Part shown: positions 8,239 to 21,196 of the stretch, one piece after another
How positions within the stretch are numbered: position 1 is the first letter of the stretch
How the letters are laid out: each line of letters begins with the position of its first letter
Assembly (NCBI RefSeq): GCF_024397795.1
Contig: NZ_CP072985.1
Location: 255,381-319,380 of the forward strand
Source of the DNA: Lactobacillus intestinalis
GTDB lineage: Bacteria; Bacillota; Bacilli; Lactobacillales; Lactobacillaceae
Direction of reading: 5' to 3'
Length of the DNA stretch: 64,000 nt
Position numbers and translations under genes: made by a program
Notes under the pieces: model-generated
Seen by the model: only the letters and a program-made list of their open reading frames with translations
The model's database searches: none
Told to the model about the DNA's origin: nothing

Positions 8239-8904
8239 ATGAAAAAAGTAGGTATTATTGGCGCCTCAGGTATGGCAGGCAGTGCTATTTATAAATTGGC
8301 AGAAAAAAATCCAAATATTGATGTAGTAGGTATTGTTCGTCATGAAAAAAAGGCTCGTGAAGTTTTAGGTAAAGATGCCAATTTAATTGTTGGAGATATT
8401 TTTGATATGCCTGACAGCATGTTGGAACACTTCGATGTGATCATCGATGCTTTTAATACAACTCCTGAAAATGCGGAAGAACATACTAAGCTTGCTAAGA
8501 AGTTAATGACTTTAGCTCAAAGAAACGATATTAGAGTAATCTTTATTCTTGGAGCTGGTAGTTTGCACACAGGAGAAGATAAACACCTTGTAGTTGATGA
8601 TATCAAGAAGATGCCAGGTTCAGAACGTTGGGCAAATACCCCAATTCAACAACTTCACGAATTAGAATACATCCACCAAGTAGATGAAGAAGATAAGAAT
8701 GAAGATGCTGATTGGCTAGGAATTTCTCCATCAATGGATTTTGTTGATGGTCCCGCAACTGATTACATTACAGGCAAAGATGAGCTTTTATATAACGACA
8801 AGGGTGAATCTAAGTTAAATTCTGGTACAATGGCAAAATTTTTAATTAAGGAAATTCTTGATCCTGTACACCATCGTGAAAGAATTACAATTGCTAACGA
8901 ATAA
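8239..8904 (+). CDS. NAD(P)-binding oxidoreductase, NmrA/YwnB-like atypical SDR
   Basis: 221 aa. The Rossmann dinucleotide motif GASGMAGSAIYKLAEKN opens the protein, followed by a typical nucleotide-binding repeat (VVGIVRHEKKA, VIIDAFNTTP, IFILGAGSL). It lacks the Tyr-x3-Lys catalytic pair of classical SDRs, as usual for YwnB/NmrA-type proteins that act as flavin reductases or redox sensors. The start at 8239 has GAAAGGA about 9 bases upstream; ten earlier in-frame codons lack a ribosome site. Confidence 0.8.
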   Translation: MKKVGIIGASGMAGSAIYKLAEKNPNIDVVGIVRHEKKAREVLGKDANLIVGDIFDMPDSMLEHFDVIIDAFNTTPENAEEHTKLAKKLMTLAQRNDIRVIFILGAGSLHTGEDKHLVVDDIKKMPGSERWANTPIQQLHELEYIHQVDEEDKNEDADWLGISPSMDFVDGPATDYITGKDELLYNDKGESKLNSGTMAKFLIKEILDPVHHRERITIANE

Positions 8905-8911
8905 TTTTTTG

Positions 8912-8940
8912 TTGACATATATAAAATTAGCAGTTATAGT
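8912..8940 (+). promoter_or_regulatory. Strong promoter of the Cys-leader/oppA unit
   Basis: A perfect TTGACA at 8912-8917 and TATAGT at 8935-8940 are separated by 17 bases. It starts transcription just ahead of the leader ORF at 8976. Confidence 0.75.
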
Positions 8941-8975
8941 ATGCTTATCAAAAATAAGCAAAGGAGATGAAGAAC

Positions 8976-9068
8976 ATGTTGGCACGTACTAATAAAATGC
9001 AAAATAGAGAATGTTGTTGCACTAGCTGCAGTTTATTTGTCGTGCTCAATGTGCAATGCGTCTCGTAA
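8976..9068 (+). CDS. Cysteine-rich leader peptide (30 aa), likely attenuator peptide
   Basis: A short ORF with a good ribosome site (AAAGGAG, 9 bases before the ATG) encodes MLARTNKMQNRECCCTSCSL followed by ten residues. Three consecutive Cys codons (13-15), another at 18 and one at 28 make 17% Cys in a proteome where Cys is rare. A strong promoter lies just upstream, and an intrinsic terminator lies between it and the OppA-like gene. This is the classical arrangement of a leader peptide sensing charged tRNA-Cys. The function as a Cys-starvation sensor is inferred; the peptide itself is probably not needed as a protein. Confidence 0.65.
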   Translation: MLARTNKMQNRECCCTSCSLFVVLNVQCVS

Positions 9069-9101
9069 ATAATTATTCTGAAACTTAATCAGACTAGTTT
9101 A

Positions 9102-9139
9102 AATGAGCTCTATTCCATGTGGAGTACAGCTCATTTTTT
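9102..9139 (+). terminator. Attenuator-type terminator between Cys leader and oppA
   Basis: AATGAGCT pairs with AGCTCATT with an inner stem TATTCC/GGAGTA and a four-base loop, followed by T6. It lies 34 bases after the leader stop and 28 bases before the oppA start. A GCTCA stretch late in the leader (about 9042-9046) is complementary to TGAGC of the 5' arm, and a small TCTGA/TCAGA hairpin lies between them. A competing fold is therefore possible. Confidence 0.75.
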
Positions 9140-9166
9140 GCTTTAAAGAAGAAAAGGAGAAAGTTT

Positions 9167-10816
9167 ATGTTGAAGTTTAAATCCGTGCTAGCAAGTGCTG
9201 TTACTATTTCTGCTGCTTTGGTGCTTGCTGCCTGCGGAAAGTCTAGTGACCACGCTAATTCAAGTAGTGCTAAAACTTTAAATTTAAGTACTACTGCGCC
9301 GCTAGACACAATTGATATCAGTAAATCAACTGGATATGGTCAAACTGGAAATGTATTTGAAAGTTTTTATCGATTAGGGGAAAATGGTAAGCCGACTGCT
9401 GGACTTGCTAAATCTGGGACAGTTTCAAAAGATGGACGTACGTGGACTTTTAAATTAAGAAACGCTAAATGGTCCAACGGCGATCCAATTACTGCGCAAG
9501 ACTTTGTTTATTCATGGAGAAGAAGTTTAAATCCTAAGACTGCATCCCCATATGCCTACCTATTCAGTGGCGTTAAAAATGCAGATGAAATTATTGCAAA
9601 TAAGAAGAAAGCTTCTAGCTTAGGAATTTCTGCCCCAAATAAAGATACCGTTGTAGTTAAACTTAACCGTCCAATTGCTTACTTTAAAGTTTTGATGGCT
9701 TATCCCTTATTTGGACCACAAAATGAAAAGGTAGTTAAGAAATATGGTAAAAAGTATGCCACTAAGGCGCAATATCAAGTTTACTCAGGTCCATTCAAGA
9801 TTAAGGGTTGGAATGGCACTAACGATACCTGGTCCTTTGTAAAGAACAACAATTACTGGGACAAGAAAGTTGTAAAGCTTAATAAGATTAATTATGAAGT
9901 TGTAAAATCAAACAACACTGGCTATCAAATGTACCAACAAGGTAAGCTCGATTTAACTCCACTTTCAAGTGAACAAGTTAAAAATTTGAAGAGTAATAAG
10001 GATTTCACTTCATACCCATATTCATTAGTTAGATTCTTAATGTACAACTTCAAGTCTAAGAATCCAACTAATAATAAAGCCCTTAATAACCGTAATATTA
10101 GATTAGCATTGTCTTTATCAATTGATAGAGATATTGTTACTAAGAAAGTATTAGGAAACGGTTCAACTTTGCCAACTGGTTTTGTAGCAAATGATTTAGC
10201 CTCTGATCCAAAAACTGGCGTTGATTTTGCGAAACAACAAAAGGTAAAGAATACCGTTGATTACAACCCAACTTTAGCTAAGAAGTATTGGAAGAAAGGA
10301 ATGCAAGAAATCGGGGCTAAGAAGCTAACATTTGATCTTCTTTCATCAAACGACGAATCTGATAGTGATCAGTTGACTCAATATTTGCAATCACAATGGA
10401 CTAAAGAACTTAAAGGCTTGAAAGTCAATGTAACTAATGTGCCAGATAAATCTACCACTAGTCGTGCACAAAATGGGGATTTTGATATTTACTTATCCCA
10501 CTGGGGTGGAGACTTTAACGATCCAATGACTTTCATGCAAATTCCTATGACTGGCACTTCATATAACTATGGTAAGTGGTCAAATTCTAAATATAACAAC
10601 CTAGTTAAAACAGCGGGCAATCAGGATGCAAATGATGCTAATAAGCGTTGGAGTGATCTCGTTACTGCAGCAAAGATCGTTAACCGCGAACAAGCTATTA
10701 CTCCAATTTATCAACAAACTACCGCATATCTCCAAAACAAGCGAGTACATGGTGTGATTCATAATACCGCAGGTACTCAATGGAACTACAAGTATACATC
10801 TGTAGATAATAAATAA
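9167..10816 (+). CDS. oppA: Oligopeptide ABC transporter substrate-binding lipoprotein (OppA-like)
   Basis: 549 aa, SBP family 5. The signal peptide ends in the lipobox LVLAACGKSS. Family blocks visible include KSGTVSKDGRTWTFKLRNAKWSNGDP and YSWRRSLNPKTASPYAYLF. The lipid-anchored protein captures peptides outside the membrane for an ABC permease, which is not encoded in this window. The start at 9167 has GGAG about 7 bases upstream; an earlier in-frame ATG at 9119 lies inside the terminator loop and is rejected. Control by the upstream Cys leader and terminator suggests uptake of Cys-containing peptides (inference). Confidence 0.93.
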   Translation: MLKFKSVLASAVTISAALVLAACGKSSDHANSSSAKTLNLSTTAPLDTIDISKSTGYGQTGNVFESFYRLGENGKPTAGLAKSGTVSKDGRTWTFKLRNAKWSNGDPITAQDFVYSWRRSLNPKTASPYAYLFSGVKNADEIIANKKKASSLGISAPNKDTVVVKLNRPIAYFKVLMAYPLFGPQNEKVVKKYGKKYATKAQYQVYSGPFKIKGWNGTNDTWSFVKNNNYWDKKVVKLNKINYEVVKSNNTGYQMYQQGKLDLTPLSSEQVKNLKSNKDFTSYPYSLVRFLMYNFKSKNPTNNKALNNRNIRLALSLSIDRDIVTKKVLGNGSTLPTGFVANDLASDPKTGVDFAKQQKVKNTVDYNPTLAKKYWKKGMQEIGAKKLTFDLLSSNDESDSDQLTQYLQSQWTKELKGLKVNVTNVPDKSTTSRAQNGDFDIYLSHWGGDFNDPMTFMQIPMTGTSYNYGKWSNSKYNNLVKTAGNQDANDANKRWSDLVTAAKIVNREQAITPIYQQTTAYLQNKRVHGVIHNTAGTQWNYKYTSVDNK

Positions 10817-12517: not shown

Positions 12518-12728
12518 AAATGGTTAAATCTTCTTTCTAAAAAATAATCTCTTCTAATAATTACATGTTTAGCAAAAAAGATCAATCATCGATAACAATG
12601 AACTTACCGAGTCATTATATTTTAAATTACTTTCACATGATGATAGGATAAAGTCGATTAATGAAATAATAAGGGTGTTATAGATCAATTTATAGCATGG
12701 TCTTTTATAGATGGAGGTTATGGTTTTT

Positions 12729-15700
12729 ATGTTATCTAGAAAAAATATAAATGAGAAATTAAAGCGGCTAGAGCAACAGAAGCAAAGATTTTCAATTCGT
12801 AAACTAACTATTGGAGCCGCTTCAGTATTAATTGGATTAGTATTTTTTGGAATGGGGAGTCAATCGGTTCATGCAGATACAATTACATCCCCTCAAGTTG
12901 TAAACAATACTGAAGTAAAAGCTACACAACCTTCTACTAATAAAACTTCTTCCAATGTTCCTAAAGAAGCTCCTAAAACTTCTACTCCCGAAGTAACTAA
13001 CAAGGCGCAAGAAGCTGCCATTTTGACTGGTAATCAAAAAAAATTTCAACCTTCAACACCAGTCAAAGCTGCAACTCCTAACTCACAGCAAGTAACTTCT
13101 ACTTCAGCTTCTAAAGTTCAAGTGGCAGCAACTACTAATACTACAAATACGCCTGCAGTACAAGCGAACGTTTCTCAAACAACAGAACATGTTGCAAATG
13201 AAACCGAACTTCAAAATGCTTTAAACAATACTAATATTAATAATATCGTTTTAGATGGCAACATTACCAATAATAGCAACTCCACATTTAGTTTAAATAA
13301 TGGAACCGCTCGGCAATTAACCATTTCTGGTAAACAAAGTGATGGTACTAATGCTAGTTGGAACACTGGCAGTGGTTATGTCTATCTTGGAAGTGGAACT
13401 GAAAGCAATAATAAGCAATGGGATATTTCGTTTGAAGATATAGATATCACTTCTACTAATAGTAATGGTTGGAGTCCAGTAAGCTTAGACAATGGTGTCA
13501 CTGGTAATATTAGTTTTAATAATGTTACTAACGGAGGAAATGGTGTCTTAGTTTATGCCCCTAGTGCTAATGTCACTGTTCAAAATACTAGTTCAAAGCC
13601 CGCATCTAGTGCTACGGATCCTAATATTACCGCCAATAACGTAAATATAGGTGACAATGTAAATTTGGTCACTACCCAAAACAACTATAATGATGGAAAT
13701 GTTTACGCAAATAGAAATATTACTGTCACTGGTAAAAATATCAGCTTAAATTCTCAAGCGGATAGTAGTGGTAGCACATCCGATGCAGCTACTAATCTTT
13801 ATGCAGGTGGCAATATTGACTTCAAGACTGGAAGCGATACAATTTTAACCGCTGCTAGTTCTCAAAGCAATAATGTTAACAATTTGAACATTAATGGCAC
13901 TTTAACAGTTGAAAAAGATGCAAATGTAGTAGTAAATTCAAATGTAACTGCAAATAATGTTTCAACTCCAACTGGATTTAACAGCTATAGTTTTCCAAGT
14001 GGCTGCAGCAGTATTACTTTAGTTAATAATGGAGCTGTAATTGATGGTAATTTAACTATTAATGCCACTGCAGTGCCAAATTCCAGTGGTGTAGTAGCAG
14101 GGATTGGCGTCCAAGGCAATCCTTCAAATGCGGCTGATGTAATTATTGGCTCAACTGGTAAATATGTTGTTAATGCTACTAATTCACGTGATACTCGCGG
14201 TATCTTCTATTGTGCTGATAACCACACTGTAGGATTAGCCGAAGGTGCTCAAGCTCAATTTAACATGGGTCATGGTGTTTCAAATGCTATCTTTAGAGCT
14301 GACAATGTAATCCTTAAGCCAAGCGCTTCAATTAACATCACCACTTATCAAGATAATAACGGCAATTCCAATAACGGTATTCAATCTGACGGTGCAGGAG
14401 ATCACTCGGGTCCTATTGTAGTTGGTTGGAGTCCTACAGGATCTGCAGATAATTCAAGTTTTGTAAATAATAATACCCACGCTACTATTGAAATAGATAA
14501 AGACGCAAATTTAACTATTATTCGTAAAACTGATAGTAATTCTAAGCAAGCTAACAGTCCATTAATTGACTTTGGATCAAATGGTAGTAATGGATTTAGT
14601 ATGAACTTGACTATGAATGGCGGAAGAATGGATCTCGAAGATGCATTACAAATGGATAGTCATAGTGGTACTCCACTTGATGGTTCTGCTAGTTATTTAG
14701 GTAGCGAAAAAGAAATCTTCCCAATGGGAATGATAGTAATGTTTGGTACTAGTTCGAGTGATTACGTTAAAATTACCGATCCTGAATTATTTAAGATGGT
14801 GAGAACTGGCGCACAAAAAGGGATGTTATTCCGTCTTGAAGGTACCACTAACTCGATTAACGTCGCTTCAAGTGATGGTGAAGCTATTCCGCTTGATTAT
14901 GCTACAGTTGGTGGCGTAAAGTACTCTAATGGAAAAGTTTCAACAAATACTGCCTATAAATGGAATATTACAAATCTTAATACAGTAAATAAGATGGGGA
15001 ACTGGGCTGCAAATTATAATAATAAAGGCGGCTCCACATCTGACGCACCAGATTCTTAGTCTGAAGGGGTTCCATTTGGTGAAGCTCAGGCAAGTGTAAC
15101 TTTTGCTCCAGTTGCTCTTTCTGATGAACCAAGTGATTTATCTACTCCAGCTGATTTTAATAATTACTTTAACTGGTGGAGTGCTTCAAATGTAGCAATG
15201 GGAAGCGATCTTATTCCTGATGCGGATAAGAATGATCCAAAAGGCGGCACAATTACTGTAAATGAAAATGCAGTTTTGACTCCTGCTGATGCGGAGCAGG
15301 CAATTACTAATAAGGCTGATTTAACCAATGTCTCTACCTACACTTGGGATAAAAATGATACTCCAAGTACCGCAAAGCCAGGAACTTTTGATGGTAAAGT
15401 AATTGTAACTTATGCAGATAAATCAGAAGATGTTGTCCCCGTTAAAGTTATTGTTAAGAGCTTAGCGGACGAATATACCCCTGAAGGCCAAACTGTTAAC
15501 GTAAAGAAGGGCCAAACTCCAAATCCAGAGGAAGGCATCAAGAATACTAATGAATTGCCAAAAGGCACCAAGTATACTTGGAAAGATACTCCTGATACTT
15601 CAACAGTTGGCACTAAATCAGCTACTATTGTTGTAACTTACCCAGATGGCTCAAAGGACGAAGTTCCTGTTAAAGTTGTGGTCACAGATAACAGCCAACC

Positions 15701-18119
15701 TTCTGAAAAGCCAGATTCAGAGAAGTATGAACCAGAAGGTCAAACTGTTAACGTAAAGAAGGGCCAAACTCCTAACGCTGAAGAAGGCATCAAGAATAGT
15801 AATGACATGCCAAAAGGCACTAAATACACTTGGAAGACTACTCCTGATACTTCAACAGTTGGCACTAAATCAGCTACTATTGTTGTAACTTACCCAGACG
15901 GCTCAAAGGACGAAGTTCCTGTTAAGGTTGTGGTCACAGATAACAGCCAACCTTCTGAAAAGCCAGATTCAGAAAAATATGAACCAGAAGGTCAAACTGT
16001 TAACGTAAAGAAGGGCCAAACTCCTAACGCTGAAGAAGGCATCAAGAATAGTAATGACATGCCAAAAGGCACTAAGTACACTTGGAAGACCACTCCTAAT
16101 ACTTCAACAGTTGGCACTAAATCAGCTACTATCGTTGTAACTTACCCAGATGGCTCAAAGGATGAAGTTCCTGTTAAGGTTGTGGTCACCGATAACAGCC
16201 AACCTTCTGAAAAGCCAGATTCAGAAAAGTATGAACCAGAAGGTCAAACTGTCAATGTAAAGAAGGGCCAAACTCCAAATCCAGAGGAAGGTATCAAGAA
16301 TACTAATGAATTGCCAAAGGGTACTAAATACACTTGGAAGACCACTCCTAATACTTCAACAGTTGGCACTAAATCAGCTACTATCGTTGTAACTTACCCA
16401 GATGGCTCAAAGGATGAAGTTCCTGTTAAGGTTGTGGTCACAGATAACAGCCAACCTTCTGAAAAGCCAGATTCAGAAAAGTATGAACCAGAAGGTCAAA
16501 CTGTTAACGTAAAGAAGGGCCAAACTCCAAATCCAGAAGAAGGCATTAAGAATACTAATGAATTGCCAAAAGGCACCAAGTATACTTGGAAAGATACTCC
16601 TGATACTTCAACAGTTGGCACTAAGTCAGCTACTATCGTTGTAACTTATCCAGACGGCTCAAAGGACGAAGTTCCTGTTAAAGTTGTGGTCACAGATAAC
16701 AGCCAACCTTCTGAAAAGCCAGATTCAGAAAAATATGAACCAGAAGGTCAAACTGTTAACGTAAAGAAGGGCCAAACTCCAAATCCAGAGGAAGGCATCA
16801 AGAATACTAATGAATTGCCAAAAGGCACCAAGTATACTTGGAAAGATACTCCTGATACTTCAACAGTTGGTACTAAGTCAGCTACTATTGTTGTAACTTA
16901 TCCAGATGGCTCAAAGGACGAAGTTCCTGTTAAAGTTGTGGTCACAGATAACAGCCAACCTTCTGAAAAGCCAGATTCAGAAAAGTATGAACCAGAAGGC
17001 CAAACTGTCAATGTAAAGAAGGGCCAAACTCCAAATCCAGAGGAAGGTATCAAGAATACTAATGAATTGCCAAAAGGCACCAAGTATACTTGGAAAGATA
17101 CTCCTAATACTTCAACAGTTGGCACTAAATCAGCTACTATTGTTGTAACTTATCCAGACGGCTCAAAGGACGAAGTTCCTGTTAAAGTTGTCGTTACAAA
17201 AGACGAGACTCAACCGGTTACCCCAATCACACCTGAACAACCTAATACTCCAGAAAATCCAACGAATACTACAAAAGTTATTGAACCAACAAATCCAGAT
17301 GATCCTAACCAAAAAGATTTATTCAAACATGTAACAAGAACAATAATCATTAAGGAACCTGGTAAGAAGGCTAAGAAGATTACTCAAACTGCTACATTTA
17401 CGAGAAATAAGACTATTAATACAGCTACAGGGGAAGTAATTTCTTACGGAAATTGGACTCCATCTACAAGAACCTTAGATAAAGTAACCACTCCAAACGT
17501 AAAGGGTTACACTAAACATATAGACGGCGATTTGAATACTATTGAAGTTTCACCAACTTCTGCCGATACTGTTGTTAAGGTCACATATACTCGTAAGCCA
17601 AAGGCTACTGAGCAAAACCCTACTAACACTAATCATTCAACTCACACTAAACGTGTAAATACCTTTACTCATGAGAGCAACAAGATTAGCCATAGCAATA
17701 ATGGTTTTGATTATAACAACGGTCCAAAAGCTATTACCATTCCAGTTAATAATAGAAGTACTGATCAAATTATTAATCGGCTTAGAAATAACGGTTATCA
17801 AGTAACAGTTAATGCTAATGGTGAAATTACTTCGATTATCAAAGTAAATGAAAATAAAGTTTATAATTACACGATTTCTCTAAAAGGAAAATTAATCCTT
17901 ACTTCTATTACATCATTAGAAAATTCTTCTAAAGCTAATAATAGCATGAGTAATTCACTATCAACTTCACAAAATGGTAAGGAAAGTCAATCTACTTCGA
18001 TGAAGGAATTACCACAAACGGGAAGCAAAGATGATGATTTAGCTTCTATTGGTCTTGCGATGGCAACTATTAGTGGCTTGTTAGGATTGATTGTAGATCG
18101 GAAACGCAAACAACAGTAA
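12729..18119 (+). pseudogene. LPXTG-anchored Rib-repeat adhesin interrupted by one in-frame TAG
   Basis: One frame runs from 12729 to 18119 (1797 codons) with a single interruption, TAG at 15057-15059 (codon 777). GGAGG lies 11 bases before the ATG. Order: YSIRK-type signal (QRFSIRKLTIGAASVLIG, residues 20-40); Thr/Ser/Pro linker; a long Asn/Gly-rich segment resembling a pectate-lyase-like beta-helix adhesive domain; the TAG; one degenerate and seven near-identical Rib repeats of 84 aa; a MucBP/Mub-B2-like segment (VTRTIIIKEPGKKAKKITQT); and a sortase signal LPQTG plus hydrophobic helix and RKRKQQ tail. As written, the N-terminal part would be secreted without its anchor. Nothing else is decayed, so the mutation is recent, strain-specific, or a sequence error. 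Confidence 0.9.
15474..17198 (+). repeat. Seven tandem 252-bp Rib-domain repeats
   Basis: Units begin at 15474, 15726, 15978, 16230, 16482, 16734 and 16986, exactly 252 bp (84 codons) apart; the last is cut at the VVVT end. Units differ at few positions. Two variants are visible: NPEEGIKNTNELPKG and NAEEGIKNSNDMPKG (units 2 and 3). Near-identity at DNA level indicates ongoing expansion and contraction by recombination without changing frame. Confidence 0.97.
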
Positions 18120-19249: not shown

Positions 19250-19540
19250 CAACAAGTAAATCATTTAGCTTTGATAAGAAAAGTAACATAAAATGAAGTT
19301 TGCAGAGAGTCTTCATATTGGTGAAAGAAGATAACTAAATTTTATTGCGAAAATCACCTTTGAGCTGAATATGCGATATTAGCATATTCAGGGGCCGCCC
19401 TATATAGCGGCGACGTATCGTCCACTTTTTAGTGGGCCGCACGTGCAGAGATCAGCTTTTTTGCTGATGAATATAGGTGGTACCGCGTAGAAGAAACGCC
19501 CTATTAGGTCAATTAGATCTAGTAGGGCGTTTTTGTTTTA
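19250..19540 (+). promoter_or_regulatory. T-box riboswitch leader, probably Ile-specific
   Basis: The leader carries the AG-bulge segment GCAGAGAGTCTTC, the Stem I apical GGTGAAA, a Stem III hairpin ATCAGC/GCTGAT (19451-19468), and the conserved T-box AGGTGGTACCGCG at 19475-19487. An intrinsic terminator follows (ACGCCCTA/TAGGGCGT then T5, about 19494-19535). By alignment to the usual pattern AA-NNN-ACC in the specifier loop, the specifier is ATC at 19353-19355 (isoleucine). AAT (Asn) one base earlier is the alternative. It should turn on the downstream peptide-binding protein when the cognate tRNA is uncharged. Confidence 0.9.
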
Positions 19541-19573: not shown

Positions 19574-21196
19574 ATGAAAAAGTGGGTAAAATTATTCGGT
19601 GGTATGGCTACAACTGCTGTAGCAGTAGGAATGTCAGCATGTTCCAATTCGTCAACGCAGGCGAAATATGACAAAACATTGTCATGGATGACAACATCTG
19701 AAATTCAAACTTTAGATCAAAATAAAATGGTTGATACAACCAGTGGAGAGCAAGGAGTCAATGTATTTGAAGGACTTAATCGATTGGATGATCAAGGGAA
19801 TATTCGGCCAGCTGTTGCTAAAAAATCCATCCCTAGTAAAGATGGAAAAACTTGGACTTTTACCTTAAGAAAAAATGCCAAATGGTCTAACGGGGATCCA
19901 GTGACAGCAGACGATTTCGTTTATAGTTTGCAAAGAACCTTAGACCCTAAAACGCATTCCCAGCAGCAAAATATTTACCAAGCTGTTAAAAATGCTAATG
20001 AAGTGGCCGCTGGAAAAGCTTCTCCGGCCAAGCTGGGAGTAGAGGCTAAAGATAAACATACTTTAGTGGTGCACCTTAAAAATCCAGTCCCATACTTTAA
20101 AACGATGACCGCTTCAAACTGGAATCCAGTTAACGAAAGAGTCGCAAAGAAATATGGAAAAAAGTATGGAACTGCTTCAAAGTATATGGTTTACAATGGC
20201 CCTTATATCCATACTGGCTGGACCGGATCTAATTTATCATGGAAATTGAAGAAGAATAATTATTACTGGGATAAGAAAAACGTTAAGCTCAACACTGTTA
20301 ACTACAGTGTGCAAAAAACACCGTCAACTGACTACAATCTTTATCAATCTAAAAAGTTAGATGGTGCATATTTAGATGCGTCCGCCTCAAAGCAGCTGAA
20401 GCACCAAGCCGGCTATCGCGTATTTAGTGCTGATCAAACAGAATATTTAACTTATAGTTTAACTAATAACAAAGATTTAGCTAATGTAAATTTACGGCGC
20501 GCTATTTCTATGGCTCTAAATCGTAAAGCCTTAGCTAAAACAGTTGGCCCTGCCAATACCGTAGCTACTACTTTTACTGGTCCAGAAGAAACTGTTGGGA
20601 GTACAAACTTTAATAAATATTTTGCTAAAACTAATGCGACTAGTAAATACACCAATTTTAATAAGAAGGAAGCACAAGTTCTCTTTAATCAAGCGTTAAA
20701 GGAATTAAAGAAGCCCAAAGTGGAGTTTACTTTGGGTGGAGATGACGACGATGTGTCTAAAAAGGTGATGGAATATCTTCAAAGCCAGCTGGAAAGCACC
20801 TTTGGTAAACAGATGGTAGTAAATGTTAGATCGATGCCTAAAACCACCAGAGTAAGTAATATGCTCAATGGTAAATATGATGTTGATCTTACCGGATTAA
20901 TTACAGACTATACTGATCCAAATTCAATGTTGGGTAGTATGACAACTGGTGAAAATTACAACTTTGGTAAATGGTCAAATAAGAAATTTGATAGATATAT
21001 AAATGCTTCAAATAAAGAGATGAATACTCAAAAGAGATTGGAAGACTTAACTAAGGCTGAAGAAGTCCTTGATAGTCAACAACCTCTAACTCCACTTTAT
21101 CACGAAGGACAAGCATGGATGGTAAGACCGAATATTCATAAGCTGGGCTTTACAAGCGGTAGTTTTAATTTCCGTAACACATATGTTACTCAATAA
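19574..21196 (+). CDS. Peptide ABC transporter substrate-binding lipoprotein (OppA-like), T-box controlled
   Basis: 540 aa, SBP family 5 and paralogous to the protein at 9167 (shared blocks DGKTWTFTLRKNAKWSNGDP and NFGKWSNKKF). The signal peptide ends with the lipobox VGMSACSN. It sits alone behind a T-box and no permease is nearby, so it presumably feeds a shared Opp permease elsewhere. The AGAGA ribosome site lies 6-8 bases before the ATG. Its peptide preference is not readable; the T-box points to supply of one amino acid. Confidence 0.9.
   Translation: MKKWVKLFGGMATTAVAVGMSACSNSSTQAKYDKTLSWMTTSEIQTLDQNKMVDTTSGEQGVNVFEGLNRLDDQGNIRPAVAKKSIPSKDGKTWTFTLRKNAKWSNGDPVTADDFVYSLQRTLDPKTHSQQQNIYQAVKNANEVAAGKASPAKLGVEAKDKHTLVVHLKNPVPYFKTMTASNWNPVNERVAKKYGKKYGTASKYMVYNGPYIHTGWTGSNLSWKLKKNNYYWDKKNVKLNTVNYSVQKTPSTDYNLYQSKKLDGAYLDASASKQLKHQAGYRVFSADQTEYLTYSLTNNKDLANVNLRRAISMALNRKALAKTVGPANTVATTFTGPEETVGSTNFNKYFAKTNATSKYTNFNKKEAQVLFNQALKELKKPKVEFTLGGDDDDVSKKVMEYLQSQLESTFGKQMVVNVRSMPKTTRVSNMLNGKYDVDLTGLITDYTDPNSMLGSMTTGENYNFGKWSNKKFDRYINASNKEMNTQKRLEDLTKAEEVLDSQQPLTPLYHEGQAWMVRPNIHKLGFTSGSFNFRNTYVTQ

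Follow-up and report, generated by a model that had tools for sequence, protein, structure and literature searches.

The locus raises the question of why a short open reading frame (ORF) with a run of Cys codons, followed by an intrinsic terminator, stands before a gene for an OppA-type peptide-binding lipoprotein. Amino-acid control of this sort in Firmicutes is mostly ascribed to T-boxes. An earlier note on this DNA had described a promoter, a 30-codon ORF with a ribosome site, Cys codons at positions 13–18, a terminator and oppA, and had taken them for ribosome-mediated attenuation. Coordinates and description of these parts proved to be correct (Table 1) in the window, i.e., the whole analysed stretch of 64,000 nucleotides from Lactobacillus intestinalis. 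We conclude that 8912–9138 is very probably a cysteine-specific ribosome-mediated transcription attenuator of oppA, which works by the three-state trp/his logic.

Table 1 Features of the oppA locus in the window and of the second operon with a Cys leader in the same genome
Feature	Position	Strand	Remarks
Promoter	-35 TTGACA 8912–8917; -10 TATAGT 8935–8940	+	11/12 consensus, 17-nt spacer
Leader-ORF ribosome site AAAGGAG	8960–8966	+	Read from the sequence; belongs to strand 1
Leader ORF, 30 codons, MLARTNKMQNRECCCTSCSLFVVLNVQCVS	8976–9068	+	ATG 8976, stop 9066–9068
Regulatory Cys codons 13, 14, 15, 18 (TGT TGT TGC ACT AGC TGC)	9012–9029	+	From the sequence
1:2 hairpin	8962–9066	+	Strand 1 (8962–8969 and 8975–9001) pairs with strand 2 (9059–9066 and 9027–9053); by folding
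Antiterminator part of strand 2	9043–9066	+	Pairs with 9103–9126, 20 bp; constrained fold
Spacer hairpin between strand 2 and terminator	9071–9099	+	By folding
Intrinsic terminator (strands 3:4)	9101–9138	+	Stem 9101–9116/9121–9136, U-tract 9133–9138; by folding
oppA ribosome site AAAAGGAG	9152–9159	+	Read from the sequence
OppA-type peptide-binding lipoprotein gene, 549 aa	9167–10816	+	ATG 9167; stop ends at 10816
Second Cys-leader operon (L160), permease-permease-ATPase-binding protein	G000:C3:70800–75600		Leader MKMLNLNLANKSVKVCCRCDSNICHAEKFSNRTS and terminator; own genome

The promoter is the top-scoring of nine promoter-like sites between 8600 and 11000, a number to be read against the 9.3 sites that shuffled sequences give. 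The leader peptide carries CCCTSC at codons 13–18, with Cys codons 13–15 at 9012–9020 and codon 18 at 9027–9029, and a fifth Cys at codon 27. The leader RNA folds with -62.2 kcal/mol, while the mean of the shuffles is -40.8 kcal/mol (z -5.5; 0/200 shuffles). By folding, the Cys codons lie within the 1:2 hairpin, in which the ribosome site of the leader is sequestered. Strand 3 (9103–9126) lies inside the terminator, which a simple terminator scan missed and folding recovered. The 2:3 helix of the window is seen when the fold omits strand 1 and the lower 3' arm of the terminator.

A T-box or another known riboswitch at this leader was ruled out, as no family of Rfam (release 15) matches 8880–9180 up to E = 1. 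Further downstream in the window, a T-box at 19262–19506 (102 bits; specifier AUC for Ile, read by eye) precedes a second OppA gene (19574–21196), whose product is 38% identical to the first; the window thus holds two OppA lipoproteins, each under a different amino-acid switch. Between the two, large repetitive surface-protein ORFs occupy 12711–18119; their beginning (12711) resembles YSIRK and their end (18119) LPxTG. They are apparently a single gene split into two ORFs between 15059 and 15198.

Conservation within the genus was examined by blastn with 8900–9200 as the query against 75 Lactobacillus genomes, 15 of which matched, its own genome counted. Two of the 17 first places were dropped, one (L013) being another piece of the L016 leader and the other (L017) a 32-base match. 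In all 15 alignable leaders, TTGAC is found 5' of the leader, and three or four consecutive Cys codons are present though other residues vary; the third codon of the run is TGC in eight leaders and TGT in seven, which is a synonymous exchange. The distance from the ATG to the Cys run is 33, 36, 39 or 42 nt in 15/15, always a multiple of three. On the 3' side of the run, indels are not multiples of three and the frame is broken, and the stop codons are located anywhere between codon 26 and codon 39. As the frame is kept only up to the Cys run, selection seems to hold mainly the Cys codons. Intrinsic terminators with altered sequence are likewise present in 15/15. When the genus was searched with the OppA protein (E <= 1e-150), orthologues were found in 23 of the 75 genomes (24 genes), and a Cys leader precedes 23 of these 24 genes. 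The only orthologue in the genus without it (L126) has a promoter-like sequence directly before the gene.

For the family Lactobacillaceae, 154 relatives were found, of which we kept the 80 best OppA loci belonging to named genomes. A strict filter (short ORF with ribosome site, at least three Cys in seven residues, at most 400 nt upstream of oppA) gave a Cys-rich short ORF at 68/80 loci. The same filter gave 0/80 on the reverse strand, 19/1600 in shuffles and 13/1830 in other 400-nt windows of the same loci (about 1%). With a permissive filter (at least two adjacent Cys), the number is 72/80, including one locus (L064) where the ORF lies inside a T-box and is there by chance. With a reach of 600 nt and TTG starts disallowed, a Cys leader is present at 70/80 orthologues; L052 and L066 are weak members of this set, the upstream ORF of the latter ending in FSRGPQLACCCC, and L053, which has a Cys leader under the permissive filter, was missed by this count through its exclusion of TTG starts. 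The 70 leaders, which were selected for Cys, contain 14.3% Cys (321/2245 residues), compared to 0.18% in OppA.

Some loci have additional features. A second Cys-rich leader ORF is found about 2–2.5 kb upstream of OppA in L059 (near 519) and L069 (near 935). Genome G009 has the same two leaders as L069, where tandem OppA genes have one Cys leader apiece. In L043, a record named Faecalicatena absiana (Lachnospiraceae), OppA and its Cys leader group with the L. delbrueckii set; this is either a mislabelled record or a transfer. A covariance model (R1) built from the genus alignment A1 is nearly a sequence model and matched 11/397 family genomes, eight of them in the genus; outside it, L026 is a Cys leader, and L027 and L028 were matched without a short ORF containing CC.

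The leader peptides of different genera share little besides the Cys cluster. Examples are ACCECN in Levilactobacillus, MCCPCC in Lactiplantibacillus, MCCSMC in Lentilactobacillus, MCCCCTSR in Ligilactobacillus, FCCC in Furfurilactobacillus, and CCNCC or CCC in Lapidilactobacillus. Metal chelation by clusters of the types CCC, CCxC and CCxCC is conceivable, and the clustering is kept while the spacing varies. Both would suit a nascent-chain redox or metal sensor, in which stalling would depend on whether the nascent Cys or tRNA-Cys is oxidised or has bound metal. A nascent chain as long as codons 7–16 should lie inside the ribosome tunnel. As the first Cys of the cluster is located at codons 7–16 in 67/70 leaders (median 12), the chain would presumably still be in the tunnel. 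Moreover, the Cys pattern varies by genus, unlike a fixed metal site, and the leaders serve uptake systems, of which one (see below) is close to cysteine receptors. We therefore regard a redox or metal sensor as very unlikely and continue with attenuation by Cys-tRNA supply.

The loci without a Cys leader are informative. At seven Liquorilactobacillus-type loci (L051, L055, L057, L060, L063, L064, and L068), a T-box (RF00230) takes the place of the Cys leader, with E-values from 2e-19 to 5e-13 and one of the seven reaching the gathering score. The specifier is AUG (Met), as judged by GAA-R-AUG-R in 7/7 loci in an alignment read by eye, which suggests that the substrate of OppA may be sulfur amino acids in general. 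A scan of 19 of the 80 loci at the Rfam gathering threshold found no riboswitch 5' of OppA, the T-boxes of L051 and L064 scoring below this threshold. Two further loci (L108 and L054) have neither a Cys leader nor a T-box before oppA. Between T-box and OppA, a microORF M(T/S)RxRxHKIxxWLxxWxGxSRG without a Cys run is conserved in L055, L060, L063, and L064. In a tree of 81 OppA proteins (quick method, midpoint root, labels assigned by hand with L066 as "none"), Cys leaders are spread throughout, and the T-box rows form two nested groups, all in the Liquorilactobacillus parts of the tree. The tree suggests a Cys leader that was ancestral to this OppA clade and gave way to a T-box in Liquorilactobacillus. 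As the root was set by midpoint, we infer the direction from leader to T-box rather than observe it.

Next to the conservation of the parts, the competing helices are the second line of evidence. In the minimum free energy fold, all 15 Lactobacillus leaders show a long hairpin of strands 1 and 2, a spacer hairpin and the terminator (judged by eye). Strand 1 comprises the ribosome site and start of the leader, and the end of the ORF forms strand 2. With strand 1 and the lower 3' arm removed from the fold, 15/15 pair strand 2 with the 5' arm, loop and upper 3' arm of the terminator. Since strand 2 pairs with either 1 or 3, these two compete for it. RNAalifold on the automatic genus alignment A1 gave no 1:2 helix and only five pairs, probably because indels misalign strand 2. 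We also folded twelve representatives, taken from other genera, from the L. delbrueckii group or from permease operons. The terminator is present in 12/12, and in 10/12, the ribosome-site region pairs with the stretch from the Cys codons to 30 nt beyond the stop codon. In the longer fold, 1:2 is missing from L058 and L061; L058 shows it in a shorter one.

Co-evolution of the strands was assessed by comparing cognate duplexes with duplexes in which the partner strands were permuted between species. Cognate strands were superior in 16 leaders (the 15 and L025), with z -5.4 for 1:2 and z -4.5 for 2:3 (p<=1e-4). After removal of the near-copies L009, L010, and L014, the 13 remaining leaders gave z -4.65 and z -4.31, respectively, compared to z -0.66 for the control pair 1:3. 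In Levilactobacillus (19 leaders), the 1:2 helix is 92.6% paired, and five of ten pairs are changed on both sides (15 cells vs 3.8 in shuffles). The 2:3 helix of the same leaders is 90.2% paired with three of seven pairs (four cells) changed on both sides; a control slid by +1 column gives more such changes than the helix (four pairs, nine cells) but pairs in only 18.8%. Covariation in Lactiplantibacillus is thin (4/56 predicted pairs). Conserved Cys codons, terminators with changed sequence, competing helices and co-evolving strands together support the attenuation that the earlier note had proposed. Of the outcomes that would have spoken against it according to that note, a loss of the Cys codons in orthologous leaders and a lack of conserved terminators were both looked for and did not occur.

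These data also bear on the possibility that terminator and short ORF are incidental, i.e., that a constitutive partial terminator acts here with no amino-acid specificity. The statistics of the 2:3 helix are unremarkable for the window alone, as 11.2% of the shuffles match the duplex (not significant), and L126 does without a leader. An incidental ORF, however, would be expected at the control rate and not at 68/80 loci, the partner strands would not be expected to co-evolve, and seven of the leader-less loci would not be expected to have a T-box in place. This is the least probable of the explanations that we considered, and ribosome-mediated attenuation remains the preferred one.

The proposed switch would have three states. 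With no ribosome on the leader, strand 1 would pair with strand 2, the terminator (3:4) would form, and oppA would be off. With plentiful Cys-tRNA, the ribosome would reach the stop codon and cover strand 2, so that the terminator forms and oppA is off again. With Cys-tRNA in short supply, the ribosome would stall at codons 13–15, with strand 1 behind it and the antiterminator part of strand 2 still ahead. The stalled or a following ribosome would prevent strand 1 from re-pairing, and the free antiterminator would capture the 5' arm, loop and upper 3' arm of the terminator, whereupon RNA polymerase would read through into oppA. Stalling and read-through at this leader are what we infer, whereas the elements and how they are conserved, the reading frame up to the Cys run, the competing helices and the co-evolution of their partner strands were obtained directly by computation.

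The geometry of the leader is suitable for this logic. Counted from the start of the ORF, Cys codons 13–15 are nucleotides 37–45; in the window fold, strand 1 extends to about nucleotide 26, and the antiterminator starts at 9043, which is nucleotide 68. Given the usual ribosome footprint, the antiterminator would be accessible during a stall at the Cys codons and occluded by a ribosome that has reached the stop codon; hence, the logic is of the trp type. The energies add a further aspect. When the terminator is complete and strand 1 is absent, this region still folds into the terminator (-27.0 kcal/mol); the 2:3 helix, with the lower 3' arm omitted, reaches -20.0 kcal/mol. As the terminator is more stable even without strand 1, the ON state must be kinetic.

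Compared with the trp and his attenuators, the oppA leader has in common a translated short ORF upstream of the gene with its own ribosome site, a run of regulatory codons (here clustered, conserved Cys codons), an intrinsic terminator, and mutually exclusive 1:2, 2:3 and 3:4 helices with a co-evolving antiterminator. Strand 1 of the trp attenuator is the region of the regulatory codons, whereas here it is the ribosome site and start codon of the leader. The target also differs, as it is uptake and not biosynthesis. With the T-box riboswitch (RF00230), the leader shares the task of converting tRNA charging into terminator read-through, which it would do by a translated ORF rather than by direct binding of tRNA.

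Both leader-peptide attenuation among Firmicutes and Cys leaders outside this phylum are already known, each on its own. Excerpts of the respective papers describe a Leu-rich leader-peptide attenuator of ilv-leu in Staphylococcus aureus (PMC5794164) and His leaders of hisS*/hisZ in bacilli (PMC2965389); a leader-peptide attenuator of ilvD in Listeria is also reported (PMC5864092). According to these sources, the systems share the phylum and the logic of leader peptide and terminator with the oppA leader and differ in the amino acid, which is not Cys in any case described there, and in serving biosynthetic or synthetase genes. For Cys, the excerpted sources describe uORFC-8-2 before cysS in Rhodobacterales, with Cys codons usually at 14–15, in a stem and with a terminator (PMC8632094), Cys leaders before cys/cbs genes in Actinobacteria (PMC1262725), and polycysteine leaderless short ORFs in mycobacteria (Canestrari 2020, cited in PMC13236596). 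As far as these excerpts go, clustered Cys codons in a short upstream ORF are common to all, while the taxa are unrelated to ours and the targets are cysS or cys/cbs genes and not uptake; the mycobacterial leaders are described there as having no conserved terminator hairpin, unlike the oppA leader. By location, the window leader falls outside uORFC-8-2, since its downstream gene is OppA and not cysS. Among the top-ranked matches in the open-licence literature, we found no description of a Cys leader from Firmicutes or of one before an OppA gene, and the words "oligopeptide" and "opp" are absent from the main text of a survey of T-box transporters (PMC2494555).

What OppA transports can be approached from the protein and from its regulation. 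The only Cys of the window OppA is residue 23 in the lipobox, and a single Cys is the rule in the set as a whole (79 of 81 OppA proteins). Among solved structures, the window protein comes closest to proteins named as peptide-binding (5kzt, E 1.2e-108, residues 25–545; 6npo; PrgZ), and its scores are under the NCBIfam equivalog cut-offs. From its regulation, OppA would import Cys-containing peptides. An excerpt of a Listeria review attributes the import of cysteine-containing peptides to the Opp transporter (PMC11236296).

A second operon with a Cys leader exists in the same genome (L160, Table 1). The leader differs in sequence from the oppA leader, and it precedes a transporter with a binding protein whose nearest solved structures are 2YJP (E 6e-79) and 1XT8 (E 1e-73), given in excerpts as the L-cysteine receptor of N. 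gonorrhoeae (PMC7170509) and a cysteine-binding protein of C. jejuni (PMC4757695), respectively. No NCBIfam equivalog cut-off was reached by the parts of the operon that were tested. The leader is patchy in its distribution: at least three Cys in seven residues are found in 9/30 loci (best 30 of 51 matches) and a Cys leader in 2/24 loci of another, overlapping set, and it also occurs before the permease operon of G073. In two genomes of genus g2 (L156 and L157), an identical short ORF MRMCMQRTYRERDKHKS with a single Cys is located before the same permease. As a cysteine-type ABC transporter of the same genome also has a Cys leader, the oppA unit seems to belong to a small regulon for cysteine uptake.

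The order of a Cys-rich ORF directly before the gene of a peptide-binding lipoprotein could also mean that the ORF encodes a secreted or imported signalling peptide or a small modified peptide, with OppA as its receptor and the terminator setting no more than the dosage. PrgZ (4faj), one of the three best solved relatives of OppA, is a pheromone receptor and would be the analogue. A signalling peptide, however, would hardly fit with leaders that have little but the Cys cluster in common between genera and lose their frame past the Cys run even within the genus, with Cys leaders before an amino-acid ABC transporter, or with an ORF whose own ribosome site is hidden by the 1:2 helix. No modification enzyme was identified in the two neighbouring proteins that were profiled. 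We consider this explanation highly improbable and retain the attenuator.

A need for cysteine import is consistent with the gene content. In the genome of the window, no cysK/cysM, no transsulfuration gene and no match to PF01053 (Cys/Met PLP family) was found, and cysE-like matches are below the cut-off only; the strain is thus likely a cysteine auxotroph, as the earlier note had suspected. A Cys leader on cysK was considered and rejected, since only two of the 30 best cysKM loci have a Cys-rich ORF, which lies >550 nt upstream and is probably due to chance; the scan reached 700 nt, so that a leader at a distant operon start could escape it. The L. paracasei operon cysK2-ctl1-cysE2 has a 5'UTR according to an excerpt of PMC6004538, which is unexplained by these results.

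A wider proposal combines these observations. The switch might respond to ribosome traffic as well as to stalling and be a two-key lock, in which only a stalled ribosome with another one loading behind it keeps strand 1 open, within an undescribed, family-wide cysteine-uptake regulon run by leader peptides that use their own ribosome site as strand 1; it would be ancient in the OppA clade and have been replaced by a Met-type T-box in Liquorilactobacillus. We put this forward tentatively, as something that may well not hold in its entirety. If true, a leader peptide and a tRNA-binding riboswitch traded places on one orthologous gene, an apparent natural exchange of two attenuation mechanisms. 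For the lactobacilli, the finding means a Cys leader-peptide switch that is spread over food and gut species and occurs in at least one that is likely auxotrophic for Cys. The switch would mark one OppA among its paralogues as cysteine-responsive and tie cysteine shortage to peptide import, and the leader is a potential cysteine biosensor.
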